Assembly: GCA_007118095.1 (NCBI GenBank)
Contig: SKSF01000028.1
Coordinates: 1 to 47,577, forward strand
Length of the DNA: 47,577 bases
Reading direction: 5' to 3'
From: Dehalococcoidia bacterium
GTDB taxonomy: Bacteria; Chloroflexota; Dehalococcoidia; Tepidiformales; Tepidiformaceae
Part shown: in pieces, positions 4,434 to 11,719 of the stretch
Position numbering within the stretch: position 1 is the first letter of the stretch
Layout of the letters: every line of letters begins with the position of its first letter
The notes under the pieces: generated by a model
What the model was told of the DNA's origin: nothing
Databases searched by the model: none
The model's input: the letters and a program-made list of their open reading frames with translations, nothing else
Program-made: the position numbers and the translations under genes

Positions 4434-4488
4434 TCATTAACGCCTTATCGTCTGGTGGGGCTTGCACTGGATATGTAGGATGAACGAG

Positions 4489-7400
4489 ATGCGATCTCCC
4501 ACATCCGGTCTCACCGCACGCCATGCGATCCCGGCACTGCGGCCCTACGTGGTCCCGCGGCAGCGCCTGCTCGATCGCATGCATGGCGCGGTCGGCAATG
4601 GCCTTATTGTCTTGCAGGCGCCGGGTGGCTATGGAAAGACGACGCTGGCCGCGCAGTTCGCGCGCGACGTCGAGTTCGAAGCGCGTTGGCTCAGCCTGGA
4701 CTCTTCGAGCCAGGCGCCAGAGGCCTTCGCCGAGCAGATCGTTTCGGCGGTGCTTGGGCGCGATGCCTGGCAGCCGGCGAGCATGGACGCTTCGGGCGCC
4801 CTCGCTTCGTACCTGGGCGTGGCGCTTCACGAATTCGAGGCGATGTCCACGCTTCCGCTCCTGCTGGTCATCGACAATGCACACGAGCTGAATCCCTCGG
4901 AAGTGTCGTGCGAGCTGCTTGGCTGGCTTCTCCAGTCCTTGCCACTGGGTTCCGAAGTGGTGCTTGCGGCCCGGGAGCCCCTCCAGGTGGCGGAGATCGA
5001 CCGCCTGGTTGCGGGCGGTGACGCTCTGCTGCTGGGCAGCAACGACCTGGGGTTCACCCCGGACGAAGTCGCCGCGGTGGTCGAACATTCCAATGACGCC
5101 GGCGCGGACCCGCGCACGGTCTTCGAGGCGACCGGGGGATGGCCGGTGGCGGTGCGGGGTGTCATCACTGGCACGCTAAGCCATGCGACGGCGAACCGGG
5201 CCGCCGCAGGTGGCGCCTGGGACCGTTACCTGGGCGGTGAAGTCTGGGCTACGGTGCCGGCAGAACTGCAACACGACCTGATGCTCGCGGCGATTCCCCC
5301 GTCAGCGGAGACGCATCTCGTCGCGACCCTCCTGGATGCTGGTGCATGGGATCGCCTCGGCGCATGGCTCGATGAGCGTGACTTCTTCGTGGAAAACGTG
5401 GATGACAGGGGGCGGCGGCTCAACCCGGTGGTCCAGCGCTTCCTCCGCGAACGGCTGCGCACCACTGAGCCGGACACCTACCAGCACGCGGTCTCCACGA
5501 TCACATGCAAGCTGGAAGGGGAGGGGCGTGTCGCCGACGCGCTCGAGATGGCCATCAGCCTCGCGTCGCACCGGGACCTCCGCGGGTTGCTGCTGCAGCA
5601 TGCGCCGGACCTCTTGCAGCGCGGCAGCTTCGTGACGTTGCGGCGGGCGTTCGACGCGCTTGAAACCTGCTACGACGAACCCGTGCCCGAGCTGACGGCA
5701 ATCCGGGCGCGTGTGCTCGCTCACCTCGACCAGCCCGAAGATGCGCTGATGACAGCCGACGCCGTCCTGGAAACGGAGTACGCCTCCCTGGAGGCGCGGC
5801 ACCATGCCCGCCTGGCCCGCGCACGTTCTTTGCGAATGCTCGGCCGCATGGACGAGGTCGCCGGCGCGCTCGACACGCCGATGGACGACCTGCCCTCGGA
5901 CCGCGCTCTGCAGGCGGAGTTTGCGTGGCACCGTGCGCACGCGGCGCTCGCCATCGATTCCGACCTCGACCGCGCGCTCCAGCTCTTGAATGAATGCCTC
6001 GTCGCGACGAAGGAGACCAGGACGCCGCTCCTTGAGCTCCTGTGCCGTTCGACTATCGGCCAGGTGCTGGTGATGAAGGGCGATGGCCCCGGCAGCGTCA
6101 CCGAATTGAGCGAAGCGGCGCGGGGATGGCGCGAACAGCAGGGCGCCGCCCATCTCGCCTGGGTGCTCAATAACCTGGGCATGGCGCACATCATGGTCGG
6201 CGACATGGAAAACGCAATCAAGACGCTCAACGAGGCGCGCGAGGAAAGCGTGATGGCGCACAACCTGCGTGCCGAGGCGTTTGCCGTCGCGTCTTTGGGC
6301 GATGCGTACCTCGCCTTCGGGAACGCTGAGAAGGCGCGCACGTGCTACGAAGAGACGATTGACCTGTGCACAGAGCAGCCACTCGACCAGTCGCTGGTTG
6401 TGATGGCGACGGCCGGCCTGGCCGGGGCCCTGCTCAGCCTGGGCGACGTCGCGCGCGCGGATTTTGTCGTGCGCCGGGCCGTCGAGATGGCCGAGGAGCT
6501 CGGCAGCCCCTTCGAGCTCGCATCGGCGTTGCTCCACCTTTCCGCCGTGGAGTCGGCCTCTGAACTCCATGCAGAGGCTGTGGGACATGCCACTCGCGCT
6601 GTGGAAATGCTCGAAGGTATCGGCGCCGAGGCTGAGCTCCGCACGGCGCGCTACCGTCTTGCCCTCATCCACTTCCGTGATGGCGACCGCGAGGCAGCCG
6701 AGCAGATCCTGGGCACATTGAACGAGTCGATGACCGCTGCATGGATGGTACGCGGGCTGGAACCGCTGATGCGCGAGCATCCCTTGTTCGCGCAGTGGGT
6801 GGAGAAGCGCCGGGATACGCCGCAGCTCGTGCGGGCGGCGATCCGGGGCATGGACTTCACGCCGCCGGAACCCGCGGAGACAGAAGCAGAATCGCGCTAT
6901 CCTCGAGTGGTGGCGCAAAGCCTCGGGCCGTTGCGTGTGCTGCGAAATGGCGAAGAAGTCGGCGACGATGCGTGGGAAAGCGTACGGGCGAAGGAGCTAT
7001 TCTACCTGTTCCTCGCCCACCCGGACGGGATCCGCAAGGAAGAAGCGTTCGAACAGCTCTACCCGGATCTCCCGGCCTCCCGCTGCAACAGCCAATTCCA
7101 TTCGAACCTCTATCGCGTCCGGAAGGCGCTGTACAAGGAGTGTGTGATTAAACGCGATGGGACGTACTTGCTGAACCCGGAAGGCGAGTTCCAGTGGGAT
7201 GTGGATGAATTCCGGGAGCTGTTAGACCGGGCCTCTGACCTCCCGGCGGGCTCGAGCGACCGCGCGGCGGCGTATGAACGCGCCATGCAGGTCTATCGCG
7301 GCCCGTTCGCCGAAGCCTTTTACTCCGAATGGGCGGCTTCCCTGCGTGAAGAGCTTTCGCGGCGACATATCGAAGCGCTCGCCAGCCTTGGCGGCTACTA

Positions 7401-7641
7401 TGCCGGCCGTGGCGAATTCGAAGCGGCCGCCGCGTGCATGGAGCAGGTGTTGCGCGCCACACAGTTCAACGACGAAGCAGCGGCGATGCTTGCGACCTAC
7501 CGGGCGCGTGCCGGGCAGCCGACGTCGGCGCTGGCATTCCTGGATGATTACCGGTCTGAGCTGCGCCGTGAACTGGATGAAGAGCTACCGCACAGGCTGA
7601 GCAATCTGCGAAAAGCCATCGCGTCTGGCGCGGCCGTGTAA
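4489..7641 (+). CDS. MalT-like STAND ATPase transcriptional activator with C-terminal winged helix and BTAD domain
   Basis: The protein has about 1050 residues. Near the N-terminus is a nucleotide-binding module: Walker A GGYGKTT (about 46-52) and Walker B LLLVIDNAHE (about 124-133), the MalT/STAND arrangement. A long TPR-like helical region follows (about 330-790). An OmpR-type winged helix (about 803-895) begins with SLGPLRVLRNGEEV. The protein ends in a bacterial transcriptional activation domain (about 902-1050), as in SARP regulators. Such proteins are signal-gated activators: ligand plus ATP drives multimerisation. The ligand is unknown. I chose ATG 4489 because TAGGA lies 8 bases upstream; ATG 4480 and TTG 4462 are alternatives. 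The gene ends in its own terminator, and the next promoter carries SARP-type repeats, so the downstream peptide/DUF5317 unit is its likeliest target. Confidence 0.92.
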   Translation: MRSPTSGLTARHAIPALRPYVVPRQRLLDRMHGAVGNGLIVLQAPGGYGKTTLAAQFARDVEFEARWLSLDSSSQAPEAFAEQIVSAVLGRDAWQPASMDASGALASYLGVALHEFEAMSTLPLLLVIDNAHELNPSEVSCELLGWLLQSLPLGSEVVLAAREPLQVAEIDRLVAGGDALLLGSNDLGFTPDEVAAVVEHSNDAGADPRTVFEATGGWPVAVRGVITGTLSHATANRAAAGGAWDRYLGGEVWATVPAELQHDLMLAAIPPSAETHLVATLLDAGAWDRLGAWLDERDFFVENVDDRGRRLNPVVQRFLRERLRTTEPDTYQHAVSTITCKLEGEGRVADALEMAISLASHRDLRGLLLQHAPDLLQRGSFVTLRRAFDALETCYDEPVPELTAIRARVLAHLDQPEDALMTADAVLETEYASLEARHHARLARARSLRMLGRMDEVAGALDTPMDDLPSDRALQAEFAWHRAHAALAIDSDLDRALQLLNECLVATKETRTPLLELLCRSTIGQVLVMKGDGPGSVTELSEAARGWREQQGAAHLAWVLNNLGMAHIMVGDMENAIKTLNEAREESVMAHNLRAEAFAVASLGDAYLAFGNAEKARTCYEETIDLCTEQPLDQSLVVMATAGLAGALLSLGDVARADFVVRRAVEMAEELGSPFELASALLHLSAVESASELHAEAVGHATRAVEMLEGIGAEAELRTARYRLALIHFRDGDREAAEQILGTLNESMTAAWMVRGLEPLMREHPLFAQWVEKRRDTPQLVRAAIRGMDFTPPEPAETEAESRYPRVVAQSLGPLRVLRNGEEVGDDAWESVRAKELFYLFLAHPDGIRKEEAFEQLYPDLPASRCNSQFHSNLYRVRKALYKECVIKRDGTYLLNPEGEFQWDVDEFRELLDRASDLPAGSSDRAAAYERAMQVYRGPFAEAFYSEWAASLREELSRRHIEALASLGGYYAGRGEFEAAAACMEQVLRATQFNDEAAAMLATYRARAGQPTSALAFLDDYRSELRRELDEELPHRLSNLRKAIASGAAV

Positions 7642-7644
7642 CAT

Positions 7645-7670
7645 CCCGGATACGGTCCGGGAATTTTTTT
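7645..7670 (+). terminator. Rho-independent terminator of the STAND-BTAD regulator gene
   Basis: CCCGGAT (7645-7651) pairs with GTCCGGG (7655-7661), one G-T pair included, across a three-base loop. AA and seven T residues follow at once. The hairpin starts three bases after the stop codon. Confidence 0.88.
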
Positions 7671-7689
7671 CACCCGCAGGCGCCTGTCG

Positions 7690-7721
7690 TGAGAATTTCG
7701 CGAGAACCTGCGCGCTATTGT
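7690..7721 (+). promoter_or_regulatory. SARP-type direct repeats and -10 element before the 29-aa ORF
   Basis: Two heptamers, TGAGAAT (7690-7696) and CGAGAAC (7701-7707), share the core GAGAA. They are separated by 4 bases (11-base period), and exactly 8 bases separate the second from TATTGT (7716-7721). This is the spacing described for SARP/BTAD activator sites: heptamer repeats 4 bp apart, the downstream one 8 bp before the -10. There is no recognisable -35, as expected for an activator-dependent promoter. The repeats sit directly after the gene for a BTAD protein. Binding by that protein is inference. Confidence 0.5.
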
Positions 7722-7759
7722 CCACCTGTCGTCAGTAAATGACGGTCAGGAGGAATGTC

Positions 7760-7849
7760 ATGAAGGTTCGCATCATCACCGCTGCCGTTTCCGTTTCGTC
7801 GCTGCTCGTACTCGCGCTCGCTGGCGCAGCCCCCATCATGCACTACTAG
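7760..7849 (+). CDS. 29-residue signal-peptide-like small ORF (candidate secreted peptide)
   Basis: An ATG preceded by AGGAGG at a 5-base distance opens a 29-codon frame ending in TAG. The peptide begins MKVR, continues with a Ser/Val/Leu/Ala-rich hydrophobic core, reaches ALAGAAP and ends IMHY. That is the n-, h- and c-region plan of a Sec signal peptide, with possible cleavage near ALAGA-A leaving a very short tail. It lies between a SARP-like promoter and the DUF5317 gene, 26 bases from the latter. Possible roles are a pheromone-like peptide sensed by the STAND regulator, a tiny membrane peptide, or a leader peptide. I do not recognise a family. The strong ribosome site is the main argument that it is translated. 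Confidence 0.55.
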   Translation: MKVRIITAAVSVSSLLVLALAGAAPIMHY

Positions 7850-7875
7850 CAGACAGACCAGGCACAGGGAGGCCG

Positions 7876-8460
7876 ATGCTTCCACGGCTGCGCGAGAAGC
7901 TCGGGAGTTCACCGTATTTCGAGCCGGTATTTCTCGCGCTTGCCGTCGCCCTGTTTGTGTTGCAGGAACTCGCCATTTCGGGACTTTCACCCGATGGCGA
8001 GTGGGCATGGCTACGCCGAGCAGCGTTTTTTGTCCTAACGCCGCTGTTTGTCCTTGTTGTCCTGCATTTCAGGCGATTCCTTGGCGCGTGGATTATTGCG
8101 CTCGGGATTACGATGAACTTCATCCCGATGGCGGCGCATGGCGGAAATATGCCCATTGCCTACGAGGTGGTCCGGGATTCAGGCGCATTCCCGTCGATCA
8201 CCGAGGATCAGATAGGGCAGCAGCTCGAGAACTCGAAGGACGTGCTCCTCTGGGAGGAGCACGTCCGATTTGAGCCGCTCTCCGACCACATCGTGTTCAC
8301 CATTCCCGGGTACCGTACCAACATCTACAGCCCCGGCGATGTTGTGATAGCCACGGGTGTGGTCATCACAACGGTCGAAGCGGTCGCATATGCGTTCGGA
8401 TTGACGTGGAGGCAGCTTTACACGCGCCTTCGGTCTCGCGGCGACTTGCCCGCAAACTAG
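7876..8460 (+). CDS. DUF5317 family membrane protein
   Basis: The protein has 194 residues. Three hydrophobic helices lie in the first ~100 (roughly 17-35, 47-64, 70-88), followed by NFIPMAAHGGNMPIA. A polar loop of about 50 residues comes next, with a SDHIVF segment and NIYSPGDVVI, and then a last helix (about 153-172). The order helix pair, N-x-x-P-x-A-x-x-G-G-x-M-P, S-D and SPGDV is what I associate with DUF5317, a family without assigned function. The start ATG follows GGGAGG three bases upstream. It should be co-transcribed with the 29-aa ORF 26 bases before it. A role in handling or sensing the peptide is possible but unproven. Confidence 0.75.
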   Translation: MLPRLREKLGSSPYFEPVFLALAVALFVLQELAISGLSPDGEWAWLRRAAFFVLTPLFVLVVLHFRRFLGAWIIALGITMNFIPMAAHGGNMPIAYEVVRDSGAFPSITEDQIGQQLENSKDVLLWEEHVRFEPLSDHIVFTIPGYRTNIYSPGDVVIATGVVITTVEAVAYAFGLTWRQLYTRLRSRGDLPAN

Positions 8461-8529: not shown

Positions 8530-9645
8530 ATGCCCTTGATGAAGGGTGGCGAAGGCCCCGCACGTTCCGACGAGCGGATCGATTTTCTCTTCGCCGTGGC
8601 ACGCGAGCCGATGCTTATTCTTGAACCTGGCGAGACGCTCTCCGATTCCCGTATCACCGACTGTAACCAGGAAGCGCTCAACCTCTTCGGCTATCGCCGG
8701 GCGAGTTTTGTCGGCCTGCCGCTCTCGCGTGTCGAAGTGCCCGGCGCCGGCGGTGAAGCCGTCCCGGCCGAAGCGACCTCCGGTGAGGCGCGCTACCGCC
8801 GTTCCGATGGACAGGTCCTTATCGTTGAGCGGACCTTCCAGCGTGTTGAGTCTGATGGCCGCGAATTGCTGCTCGTTTCCATGCATGATGTCACTGCGGC
8901 ACGGCTCCTCGAGCGTGCAGTTGTACGCGTCCAGCAGATGGATAACCTCGGCATGGTCTCGGGCACCCTGGTGCACGACTTCCGAAATCTCCTGGTGAGT
9001 GTGCTGGCCAACGCCGAACTTGCGCTCGCCGCACCTGACGATGCCGAAGCTGTGCGCGAGCGAGTTGAGGACATCGCCCGCAGTGCCCGGCGCGCGACCG
9101 AGCTTGTCGACCGTGTGTTGCCGTCGTCTACTGGCGACCAGCCGCTGGTACCGCTCGACCTGGACAGCGTCGTCGACGATGCTGTGGAGCTCATGCGCGG
9201 CTCCCTCCCGGCGAATATCACGCTGGAGCGGTCCGTCCACGAAGAGCCGCTTCCCATCGCTGGCGACGCCACCCAGCTCCGCCAGGTGGTGATGAACCTC
9301 GTCATCAACGCGTGCGAAGCGATCGGCGATGCCCCGGGGACAGTGCGGGTTGGGACGGGCATGGTGGCAGCATCGGAGGTGGACCTGACCGGGGCCTACC
9401 CACCCCTCTCGGAGCGGGCGGAACAGTGGGTGTACCTGGATGTCGCCGACTCCGGCGCCGGGGTGGACAGCGCGACGCGGGAGCGCATTTTCGAACCCCT
9501 GTTCACCACAAAGTCGGACGGCACTGGCCTGGGGCTCACCGCCGTGCAGTTTGCGGTCCGGCGTCATGGCGGCACTGTCACGCTGCACTCCGAGCCGGGC
9601 GAAGGGTCCTCCTTCCGCATTCTTTTCCCCGTGGATGAAAGCTGA
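8530..9645 (+). CDS. Soluble PAS-domain sensor histidine kinase
   Basis: The protein has 371 residues and no transmembrane segment. A PAS domain occupies about residues 18-135 (TDCNQEALNLFGYRRASFVG). The dimerisation/phosphoacceptor helix contains VHDFRNLLV with His149, an HDFNN-type H-box. The ATP-binding domain shows NLVINACEA (N-box, near residue 260), DSGAGVD and TGLGL, and ends with the usual GSSFRILFP strand. All kinase motifs look intact. No response regulator gene lies beside it, so it is an orphan kinase here. It stands 69 bases after the DUF5317 gene and 109 bases before glgE. TATACT at 8472-8477 could be its -10, but no -35 at a good distance was found. The PAS ligand is unknown. 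Confidence 0.9.
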   Translation: MPLMKGGEGPARSDERIDFLFAVAREPMLILEPGETLSDSRITDCNQEALNLFGYRRASFVGLPLSRVEVPGAGGEAVPAEATSGEARYRRSDGQVLIVERTFQRVESDGRELLLVSMHDVTAARLLERAVVRVQQMDNLGMVSGTLVHDFRNLLVSVLANAELALAAPDDAEAVRERVEDIARSARRATELVDRVLPSSTGDQPLVPLDLDSVVDDAVELMRGSLPANITLERSVHEEPLPIAGDATQLRQVVMNLVINACEAIGDAPGTVRVGTGMVAASEVDLTGAYPPLSERAEQWVYLDVADSGAGVDSATRERIFEPLFTTKSDGTGLGLTAVQFAVRRHGGTVTLHSEPGEGSSFRILFPVDES

Positions 9646-9754: not shown

Positions 9755-11719
9755 GTGACAGAAACGCCAGCCCTTGCCTCCGCTCCGCACATCATCGTTG
9801 TCGACATCCAGCCAACCATCGAGTGTGGAGAACACCCGGTGAAGCGCATCGTCGGCGATGTGTTCACCGTGCGCGCGGTTGTGCTGAAGGGCGGTTACGA
9901 AGCGCTCGGGGCGGAACTCCGGGTACAGCGCCCTGGCAGCGATTCATGGGACGCCGTGCCCATGCGCTACGTCTACGAGGACGACCAGTGGGTTGCCGAT
10001 GTCACGCTCGACACAATCGGGGCCTGGCGCTACACGGTGGCCGCGTGGACGAATACTTTCAGCACCTGGCGAACCGAGATCGAGCGAAAGCACGCGGCCG
10101 GCGTCGACCTCTCGTCTGAGATGCTCGAAGGGGCGAACCTGCTGCGATATTACGCGCGGCACGCACAACCGGGCGCGCGCGACAGCATCATGGCGTATGC
10201 GGAGGCCATCGGCACAGCATCGCGTGACCGTGCAGTCGCATTCGCGCTCGAAGCGCGCCTGCAGCAGCTTGTTACGCAGGCCGACCCGCGTGAAGACCTG
10301 GTTGTCCACGAGCCTCCATACGAGGTGTGGGTGGACCGCGAGCGTGCACGCTTCGGCGCCTGGTACGAGCTCTTTCCCCGTTCGCAATCGCCGGTACCCG
10401 GTGAGCACGGCACGCTCCGCGATGTCGAAGGTGTGCTGCCGCGGCTGCGCGACCTCGGATTCGATGTCATCTATCTCCCGCCCATTCACCCGATCGGCCG
10501 GACGAACCGCAAGGGAAAGAACAACAGTCTCGCGCCGGCGCCTGATGACGTTGGCAGCCCCTGGGCCATCGGCAACGAAGACGGCGGCCACGATGCCATC
10601 GAACCAAAGCTGGGCACCATCGAGGACTTCGACCACCTGGTGGCGACTGCACGAGAATACGGCATCGAGATCGCGCTCGACTTCGCTATCCAGTGTTCGC
10701 CAGACCACCCGTATGTCCGTGAGCATCCTGAATGGTTCCGGCGCCGCCCCGACGGCACGATCAAGTATGCGGAGAACCCGCCCAAGAAGTACGAGGACAT
10801 CGTCGCGGTGGACCTCTGGTGCGAGGACTATCCCGCGCTCTGGCAGGAATTGAAGCGTGTGGTGCTGCACTGGGTGGAGCACGGCGTGCGCATCTTCCGG
10901 GTCGACAATCCGCACACGAAGCCGCTTGCCTTCTGGATGTGGCTGATAGAGGAAGTGCGCCGGGACTACCCGGACGTCTTCTTCCTCGCCGAAGCATTCA
11001 CGCGCCCAAACCTGCTCCACGAGCTTGCGCGGATCGGGTTCAGCCAGTCGTATACCTACTTCACCTGGCGCAACACCCGCATCGAGCTCGAAGACTACCT
11101 GGAAGAGCTGGCATCCCCGCCCGGTGTTGAATACGTGCGCCCGAACTTCTTTGCGAACACACCGGACATCCTCCACGAGTACCTGCAGGACGGCGGCCGG
11201 CCCGCGTTCAAGATCCGGCACGCTCTCGCCGCGACCCTGTCGCCAACGTACGGCATCTACAGCGGCTTCGAACTCTGCGAGAACGTGCCGGTGCGCATGG
11301 GCAGCGAGGAATACCTCGATTCGGAGAAGTATCAGATCCGCCAGCGCGACTGGGATGCGCCCGGGAACATCAACGACTTCATCGCCGCGGTGAACCGCGC
11401 CCGCAAGGAAAATGAAGCGCTCCACTTTCTTGCTAACCTGAGGTTCCACAGGCCGGATAACCCTGCCATCATCGCGTATAGCAAGAGCACGGACGATGGC
11501 GGCAACCGTGTGCTCGTGGTTGTAAACCTCGACCCGGCCTCCCCCCAGGAAGCAACGGTGCTTCTCGATGGAGACGCGCTCGGGTTGGGCGAAGGCTCAA
11601 CCTATGTAGTGCACGACCTGCTCACAGGTGACCGCTATACGTGGAACGGGCTTGCGAACTATGTCTGGCTAGACCCCGCAACCGAGCCGGTCCACCTCTT
11701 CCGCATTGAGGCGCCGTAG
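9755..11719 (+). CDS. glgE: Alpha-1,4-glucan:maltose-1-phosphate maltosyltransferase
   Basis: GlgE (EC 2.4.99.16) transfers maltosyl units from maltose-1-phosphate to the non-reducing end of alpha-1,4-glucan in the cytoplasm. The 654-residue length is normal. The N-terminal beta-sandwich domain (about 8-105) is followed by the GH13_3 barrel. The nucleophile is Asp384 in FRVDNPHTKP, a GlgE hallmark, and the acid/base is Glu413 in FLAEAF. Both sit 10 residues before the positions I recall for the Streptomyces enzyme (394 and 423). NTPDIL supplies the third carboxylate region. The start is GTG, after CCGAGGTG. It is the first gene of the glucan operon, and the treS ATG follows its TAG with no gap. 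Confidence 0.95.
   Translation: MTETPALASAPHIIVVDIQPTIECGEHPVKRIVGDVFTVRAVVLKGGYEALGAELRVQRPGSDSWDAVPMRYVYEDDQWVADVTLDTIGAWRYTVAAWTNTFSTWRTEIERKHAAGVDLSSEMLEGANLLRYYARHAQPGARDSIMAYAEAIGTASRDRAVAFALEARLQQLVTQADPREDLVVHEPPYEVWVDRERARFGAWYELFPRSQSPVPGEHGTLRDVEGVLPRLRDLGFDVIYLPPIHPIGRTNRKGKNNSLAPAPDDVGSPWAIGNEDGGHDAIEPKLGTIEDFDHLVATAREYGIEIALDFAIQCSPDHPYVREHPEWFRRRPDGTIKYAENPPKKYEDIVAVDLWCEDYPALWQELKRVVLHWVEHGVRIFRVDNPHTKPLAFWMWLIEEVRRDYPDVFFLAEAFTRPNLLHELARIGFSQSYTYFTWRNTRIELEDYLEELASPPGVEYVRPNFFANTPDILHEYLQDGGRPAFKIRHALAATLSPTYGIYSGFELCENVPVRMGSEEYLDSEKYQIRQRDWDAPGNINDFIAAVNRARKENEALHFLANLRFHRPDNPAIIAYSKSTDDGGNRVLVVVNLDPASPQEATVLLDGDALGLGEGSTYVVHDLLTGDRYTWNGLANYVWLDPATEPVHLFRIEAP

Follow-up and report, generated by a model that had tools for sequence, protein, structure and literature searches.

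A small signal-peptide-like gene, a STAND–TPR–SARP regulator gene and a DUF5317 gene in a conserved Chloroflexota cassette that looks like a peptide quorum-sensing system

Organization of the locus

The window, by which we mean the whole stretch of 47,577 nucleotides that was analysed, carries a large regulator gene, a small open reading frame (ORF) and a gene for a DUF5317 membrane protein (Table 1). The regulator gene ends 118 nt before the small ORF, an adjacency that is conserved in the family (Tepidiformaceae, class Dehalococcoidia), and the DUF5317 gene starts 26 nt 3′ of the end of the small ORF. A terminator isolating the regulator had been proposed in an initial annotation of this DNA, and the hairpin with its run of seven T residues agrees with that proposal.

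Table 1 Features of the cassette in the window
Feature	Position	Strand	Basis or remark
Regulator gene, 1059 aa: STAND + TPR + winged helix/BTAD	4462..7641	+	Pfam, model
Intrinsic terminator-like hairpin, then T7 (ATTTTTTT)	7644..7662	+	Between regulator and peptide transcripts
SARP-type operator CGTGAGAATTTCGCGAGAACC, two 11-bp direct repeats (CGTGAGAATTT/CGCGAGAACC)	7688..7708	+	Alignment of 20 family loci
−10 element TATTGT	7716..7721	+	TANNNT in family, 20/20
Shine–Dalgarno sequence AGGAGG of the small ORF	7748..7753	+	Sequence
Signal-peptide-like propeptide gene, 29 aa	7760..7849	+	Conserved in 22 family genomes; purifying selection
Shine–Dalgarno sequence GGGAGG of the DUF5317 gene	7867..7872	+	Sequence
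DUF5317 membrane-protein gene, 194 aa	7876..8460	+	PF17248, E 4e-19

The small ORF is a conserved gene

The product of the small ORF, MKVRIITAAVSVSSLLVLALAGAAPIMHY, has a basic N terminus, a hydrophobic core and the sequence AGAAP followed by four residues, a plan that we judged, by inspection of the sequence, to be that of a signal peptide; it matched no Pfam or NCBIfam family. Relatives were collected by searching related genomes with the DUF5317 protein, and the family includes Tepidiforma (T. flava, NZ_CP115149) and other Dehalococcoidia. A homologue of 28–29 amino acids (aa) was present in all 21 family loci for which the interval 5′ of DUF5317 lies on the contig, and one further family copy sits at a contig end (G004). 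In G003, the regulator gene has no peptide ORF after it, and the contig stops short of the region 5′ of DUF5317. Shuffled intergenic regions yielded a comparable ORF at a rate of 0.3–0.5%. Because an in-frame ATG upstream (7739, giving 36 codons) is not conserved, position 7760 is the likely start. A hidden Markov model (HMM) of the small ORF recovered the family copies (E 1e-10 to 1e-15 per genome); its matches outside the family (E 0.001–0.01) were rejected as noise, with the exception of G105, which was confirmed by its context.

Among near relatives, the small ORF is under purifying selection (pN/pS 0.02–0.19). The copies at L080 and L083 differ by 17 synonymous changes and 1 nonsynonymous change, and the window differs from L070 by 14.3 synonymous and 6.7 nonsynonymous changes. 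Across 15 distinct sequences, R4, L15, G22, A24 and P25 do not vary. Conservation extends over the hydrophobic leader, and the final 4–10 residues differ by lineage: an A-x-A-P boundary is followed by a short tail, such that leaders are alike within a lineage and what comes after A-P changes from one lineage to the next. The last 5–7 residues, for example APIMHY, are a candidate mature peptide. The ORF at 7760–7849, noted initially for its 29 codons and AGGAGG site, is a real gene, given its presence at every covered family locus and substitutions that are mostly synonymous.

A SARP-type promoter precedes the small ORF

The upstream regions of the family align on the pattern GCGAGAA-N4-GCGAGAA, followed at a fixed distance by TANNNT, in 20 of 20 loci, and the T, A and T of this −10 element are identical in every one. 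SARP-dependent promoters have repeats of 11 or 22 bp, and 8 bp separate the 3′ repeat from the −10 element (PMC10936776). Judged from its sequence, the promoter of the small ORF matches the geometry of this SARP/AfsR rule, and the SARP-like promoter of the initial annotation holds up. A sigma-70 consensus scan returned no promoter. With up to one mismatch allowed, the only operator match in the window's own genome is at this promoter, and family genomes each have about one copy of the operator, at the peptide promoter. The sole convincing extra copy (L208, G002:C5:188647) has the same −10 spacing and lies 5′ of a NarL-type response-regulator gene, a possible regulon member. Given this frequency, with one convincing exception, a wider regulon was not seen.

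Other arrangements of upstream elements were also noted. In lineage f17 (L121, L122 and L124–L127), the small-ORF promoters are sigma-28-like (CTCAAG-N about 15-CCGAT) and lack SARP repeats. In Tepidiforma and in genus g7 (L012, L014 and L009), an inverted repeat, ATCGCCCGC...GCGGGCGAT, spans the DUF5317 start codon.

The cassette is conserved across the phylum

Within the family, regulator and DUF5317 co-occur perfectly. Of 38 genomes, 22 have DUF5317 together with a regulator ortholog (E below 1e-60), and 15 have neither; in the remaining one (G024), the contig with DUF5317 is truncated. The link between peptide and regulator survives rearrangement. In G017, the regulator gene lies on the opposite strand, convergent with the pair of peptide and DUF5317 genes. 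In lineage f17, where the pair adjoins nuo genes (gene type read from sequence), an unlinked, full-length regulator ortholog is present elsewhere in five of the five genomes searched (E 1e-140 to 1e-154). Counting against the pairing, the f17 peptide gene stays with DUF5317 rather than with the regulator, its promoter is not of the SARP type, and no peptide ORF was found beside the unlinked regulator gene. The regulator gene of G003, which has no peptide ORF after it, counts against the pairing too.

To look beyond the family, we searched 393 genomes of the class and 400 genomes of the phylum Chloroflexota with PF17248. Where a BTAD gene lies just 5′ of DUF5317 (41 loci, 15 of them from the window's own family), an automatic call found a signal-peptide-like ORF with a Shine–Dalgarno sequence in 38, against 0.5% in a dinucleotide-shuffle control. 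Each of the three misses (L087, L143 and L177) has a visible ORF that falls outside the calling criteria. Examples of the peptide ORFs are MKTRLLYAFYSLLVVGALVVAAAAPAIWR, MRRFRSTWVVVVGTAIVLAAAAFAGAAPWMYA and MKTKLNLIAASLSSLNRQHIQLFFVLLTLTMLVLGAGAPEDGGGVGR. Many DUF5317 loci have no such small ORF, and DUF5317 genes beside HD or GGDEF-type genes (neighbour types read from sequence) are without one. The cassette is therefore conserved across the Chloroflexota, well beyond Tepidiformaceae. The initial annotation had suggested looking in other genomes for very small hydrophobic ORFs flanked by BTAD-STAND and DUF5317 genes, and testing their coding conservation; such ORFs occur family-wide and in many other Chloroflexota families, and the pN/pS ratios given above bear out their coding nature among near relatives. 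At a separate locus (L179, G539:C1:2909000-2914000), a 40-aa ORF with AGGAGG was seen 5′ of DUF5317.

Several genomes carry the peptide gene in more than one copy. In lineage f59, three loci (L291, L295 and L296) have two extra ORFs after the regulator gene, with AAQSP[LF]F or a sequence close to it at the C terminus, and two others (L293 and L294) have a single ORF of this type. The tandem intervals hold SARP-type boxes (GGCGAGA-N4-GGCGAGA), with one box per ORF in L295, so that units of box and peptide lie in tandem beside the regulator without an extra DUF5317. In G729, there are two or three serial peptide ORFs, two of which end in G[AT]PMV(P)GG. Propeptide duplication is known from RRNPP systems (PMC11343458). 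L291 and L295 have in common a secreted-looking protein of ~95–110 aa, encoded between the tandem peptide ORFs and DUF5317, and in L291 and L296 tiny non-hydrophobic ORFs (for example, MKNRTRNAIKWSYDDQGL...) lie 3′ of other SARP boxes.

The regulator is predicted to combine MalT-like, Rap-like and AfsR-like parts

The regulator matches the Pfam families BTAD (PF03704), TPR and AAA. Its predicted structure (pLDDT 86.8) comprises a MalT-like STAND NTPase (residues ~16–413), a TPR superhelix (~437–799) and an AfsR-like winged helix with BTAD (~814–1059). In structure matches of the model, the STAND part resembles MalT (8bob; Z 33.9 over 390 residues) and the TPR part resembles MalT domain III (1hz4; Z 26.0), but the regulator has a SARP domain where MalT has a LuxR-type HTH, and it scores 115 bits in the NCBIfam MalT equivalog test, for which the cut-off is 537. 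The C terminus superposes on the AfsR of an initiation-complex structure (8k60; Z 21.3), a likeness to AfsR/SARP systems that extends to the 11-bp repeats with fixed −10 spacing. Here, however, the SARP domain is C-terminal (814–1059) instead of N-terminal, the STAND part is of the MalT type, and the putative target is a peptide gene and not antibiotic genes. The TPR part also matches peptide-bound Rap (4gyo, Rap with CSF, Z 24.4; phi3T Rap, Z 23.9) and NprR–NprX (Z 19.8). Because the ligand of MalT, a protein that shares this TPR fold, is a sugar (maltotriose) and not a peptide, TPR likeness alone is no proof of peptide binding.

DUF5317 and a possible relation to LspA

The membrane protein passes the gathering score of PF17248 (69.5 bits versus 25). 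Its model (pLDDT 89.8) has four transmembrane helices and a β-containing loop at 88–152 that, by positive-inside reasoning, is probably extracytoplasmic. Near-universal residues in 106 DUF5317 sequences are G77, N81, M92, P93, D137, S152, G154 and D155. The four helices, a G-x3-N motif and the near-invariant D137 and D155, which are 18 residues apart as are D118 and D136 of LspA, recall that peptidase; by contrast, the β loop of DUF5317 lies between TM3 and TM4, and that of LspA mainly after TM1. End-to-end structure alignment with LspA gave Z 5.5, tied with other four-helix proteins. DUF5317 did not match PF01252 (LspA) up to E 0.1, and hhalign of DUF5317 with LspA reached a best probability of 5.6%, which is not significant. 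Only for the set of DUF5317 sequences from loci without the small ORF was the score clearly higher than the shuffled null (22.1 versus 14.4); the remaining sets were within or about at the null. A Foldseek search of the PDB returned nothing at E ≤ 0.001, and the DUF5317 profile matched no PDB sequence. We treat an LspA-like peptidase role as a lead rather than a finding.

In the family, the peptide tail and the TPR region covary

Covariation was assessed by several partial Mantel tests, which are liberal: in the family, once the other regions were corrected for, peptide tail and TPR region covaried (partial r 0.41, p 0.0025), and this persisted after dereplication (p 0.011 and 0.039). No covariation of the tail with STAND, SARP or DUF5317 was found in the family. 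The leader covaried weakly with DUF5317 (p 0.03–0.05); it also covaried with STAND in the set before dereplication (p 0.0005). In f104, the second family tested, tail–TPR covariation fell short of significance (p 0.13), the leader–DUF5317 link was seen again (p 0.005), and leader and SARP covaried as well (p 0.006). Opp-type importers were considered as a discriminator of cassette-bearing genomes and rejected; their binding proteins give 24 matches in the window's own genome, and family members that lack the cassette have such importers too.

A proposed peptide-signalling circuit

Quorum sensing by peptides that are sensed inside the cell is described for Firmicutes, their phages and plasmids. 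The Chloroflexota cassette looks like an undescribed system in the same style. In the open-licence literature, we found no description of peptide signalling in Chloroflexota or through STAND/SARP regulators, and no mention of DUF5317. We consider it probable (about 0.6) that the cassette is an autoinducing peptide-signalling system that works in an RRNPP-like way. The propeptide would be exported and trimmed to its tail of 5–7 residues (longer in other families), and the trimmed peptide would re-enter the cell through an Opp-type importer and bind the STAND regulator at its TPR superhelix. The activated regulator would in turn bind the 11-bp repeats and switch on the peptide–DUF5317 operon, in a positive feedback. 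For DUF5317, the most likely role is within the membrane, where the protein would handle the leader or peptide as a processing protease, an exporter or an immunity or receptor partner. The functional link between peptide and regulator, conjectural in the initial annotation, is strengthened by their perfect co-occurrence, by the tandem units of box and peptide beside the regulator and by the receptor-like TPR fold.

Like the RRNPP(A) systems (PlcR–PapR, NprR–NprX, Rap–Phr, Rgg–SHP and AimR–AimP), the cassette places a signal-peptide-like propeptide, variable in its C-terminal 4–10 residues and in places in tandem, beside a TPR regulator, the modelled fold of which superposes on Rap, NprR and AimR. 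It differs from them in its receptor, which includes a STAND NTPase and a SARP domain, in its third gene, DUF5317, and in its phylum. Published criteria for RRNPP pairs are a Sec-secreted propeptide of 10–100 aa and an adjacent gene for a receptor of 250–500 aa with a TPR peptide-binding domain (PMC10075063). The propeptide of 29 aa, the conserved adjacency of the two genes (118 nt apart here) and the TPR domain, as judged from Pfam and from the model's matches to Rap and NprR, lie within these criteria, but the receptor of 1059 aa exceeds them; by size and architecture, the cassette is thus not an RRNPP member.

If the signalling model is correct, this form of quorum sensing would reach into the Chloroflexota, where one genus with the cassette, Tepidiforma, is in culture and has complete genomes. 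A TPR-STAND regulator would gain a candidate peptide, and DUF5317 would have its first testable role. Peptides as short as those predicted can be synthesized and tested directly. A more far-reaching version, which we regard as doubtful, is a phylum-wide pheromone system whose receptors form a new class (MalT-type STAND, Rap-like TPR and C-terminal SARP) and in which DUF5317 is a dedicated LspA-like aspartyl peptidase that cleaves the non-lipidated LAG-A leader of the propeptide.

The constraint on the entire small ORF, core included, its persistence beside DUF5317 in f17 although the regulator is unlinked, and the covariation of leader and DUF5317 in two families would also fit a microprotein that crosses the membrane once and serves as a permanent subunit of DUF5317, with the BTAD regulator only switching the pair on in response to another ligand, such as a sugar or metabolite, as in MalT. 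We think this unlikely, although it is the best of the alternatives: a permanent subunit is at odds with tandem peptide ORFs and SARP-type boxes beside the regulator without an extra DUF5317, with a lineage-variable part that is the C-terminal tail, and with the many DUF5317 loci that have no small ORF.

It is considerably less probable that the ORF is a leader peptide, the translation of which controls DUF5317 by attenuation or arrest and the product of which has no function of its own. Its position just 5′ of DUF5317 would suit such a role, and G-A-x-P and the terminal aromatic residue are reminiscent of arrest motifs. However, a 29-aa chain is too short for a signal sequence to emerge from the ribosome at arrest, DUF5317 has its own strong Shine–Dalgarno sequence in the window and in the closest relative, the distance between the two genes varies, and tandem copies of the ORF lie away from DUF5317. 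Least probable is a reading in which the product is a small hydrophobic toxin of the membrane, or a peptide like a bacteriocin, to which DUF5317 confers immunity; the small hydrophobic product and adjacent membrane protein might suggest it, but it sits poorly with a single conserved copy in the same, regulator-driven context family-wide, a very short tail, the lack of any noticed antisense or antitoxin feature, and DUF5317 being widespread without the small ORF.

Genes downstream of the cassette

Directly 3′ of the DUF5317 gene, the window carries a gene for a PAS-domain histidine kinase (8530–9645). In G001 and G006, homologues (59% and 32% identity, respectively) likewise lie 3′ of the cassette. 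The histidine kinase gene is followed by a gene for a GlgE-type maltosyltransferase (9755–11719; PF11896 and PF21702).
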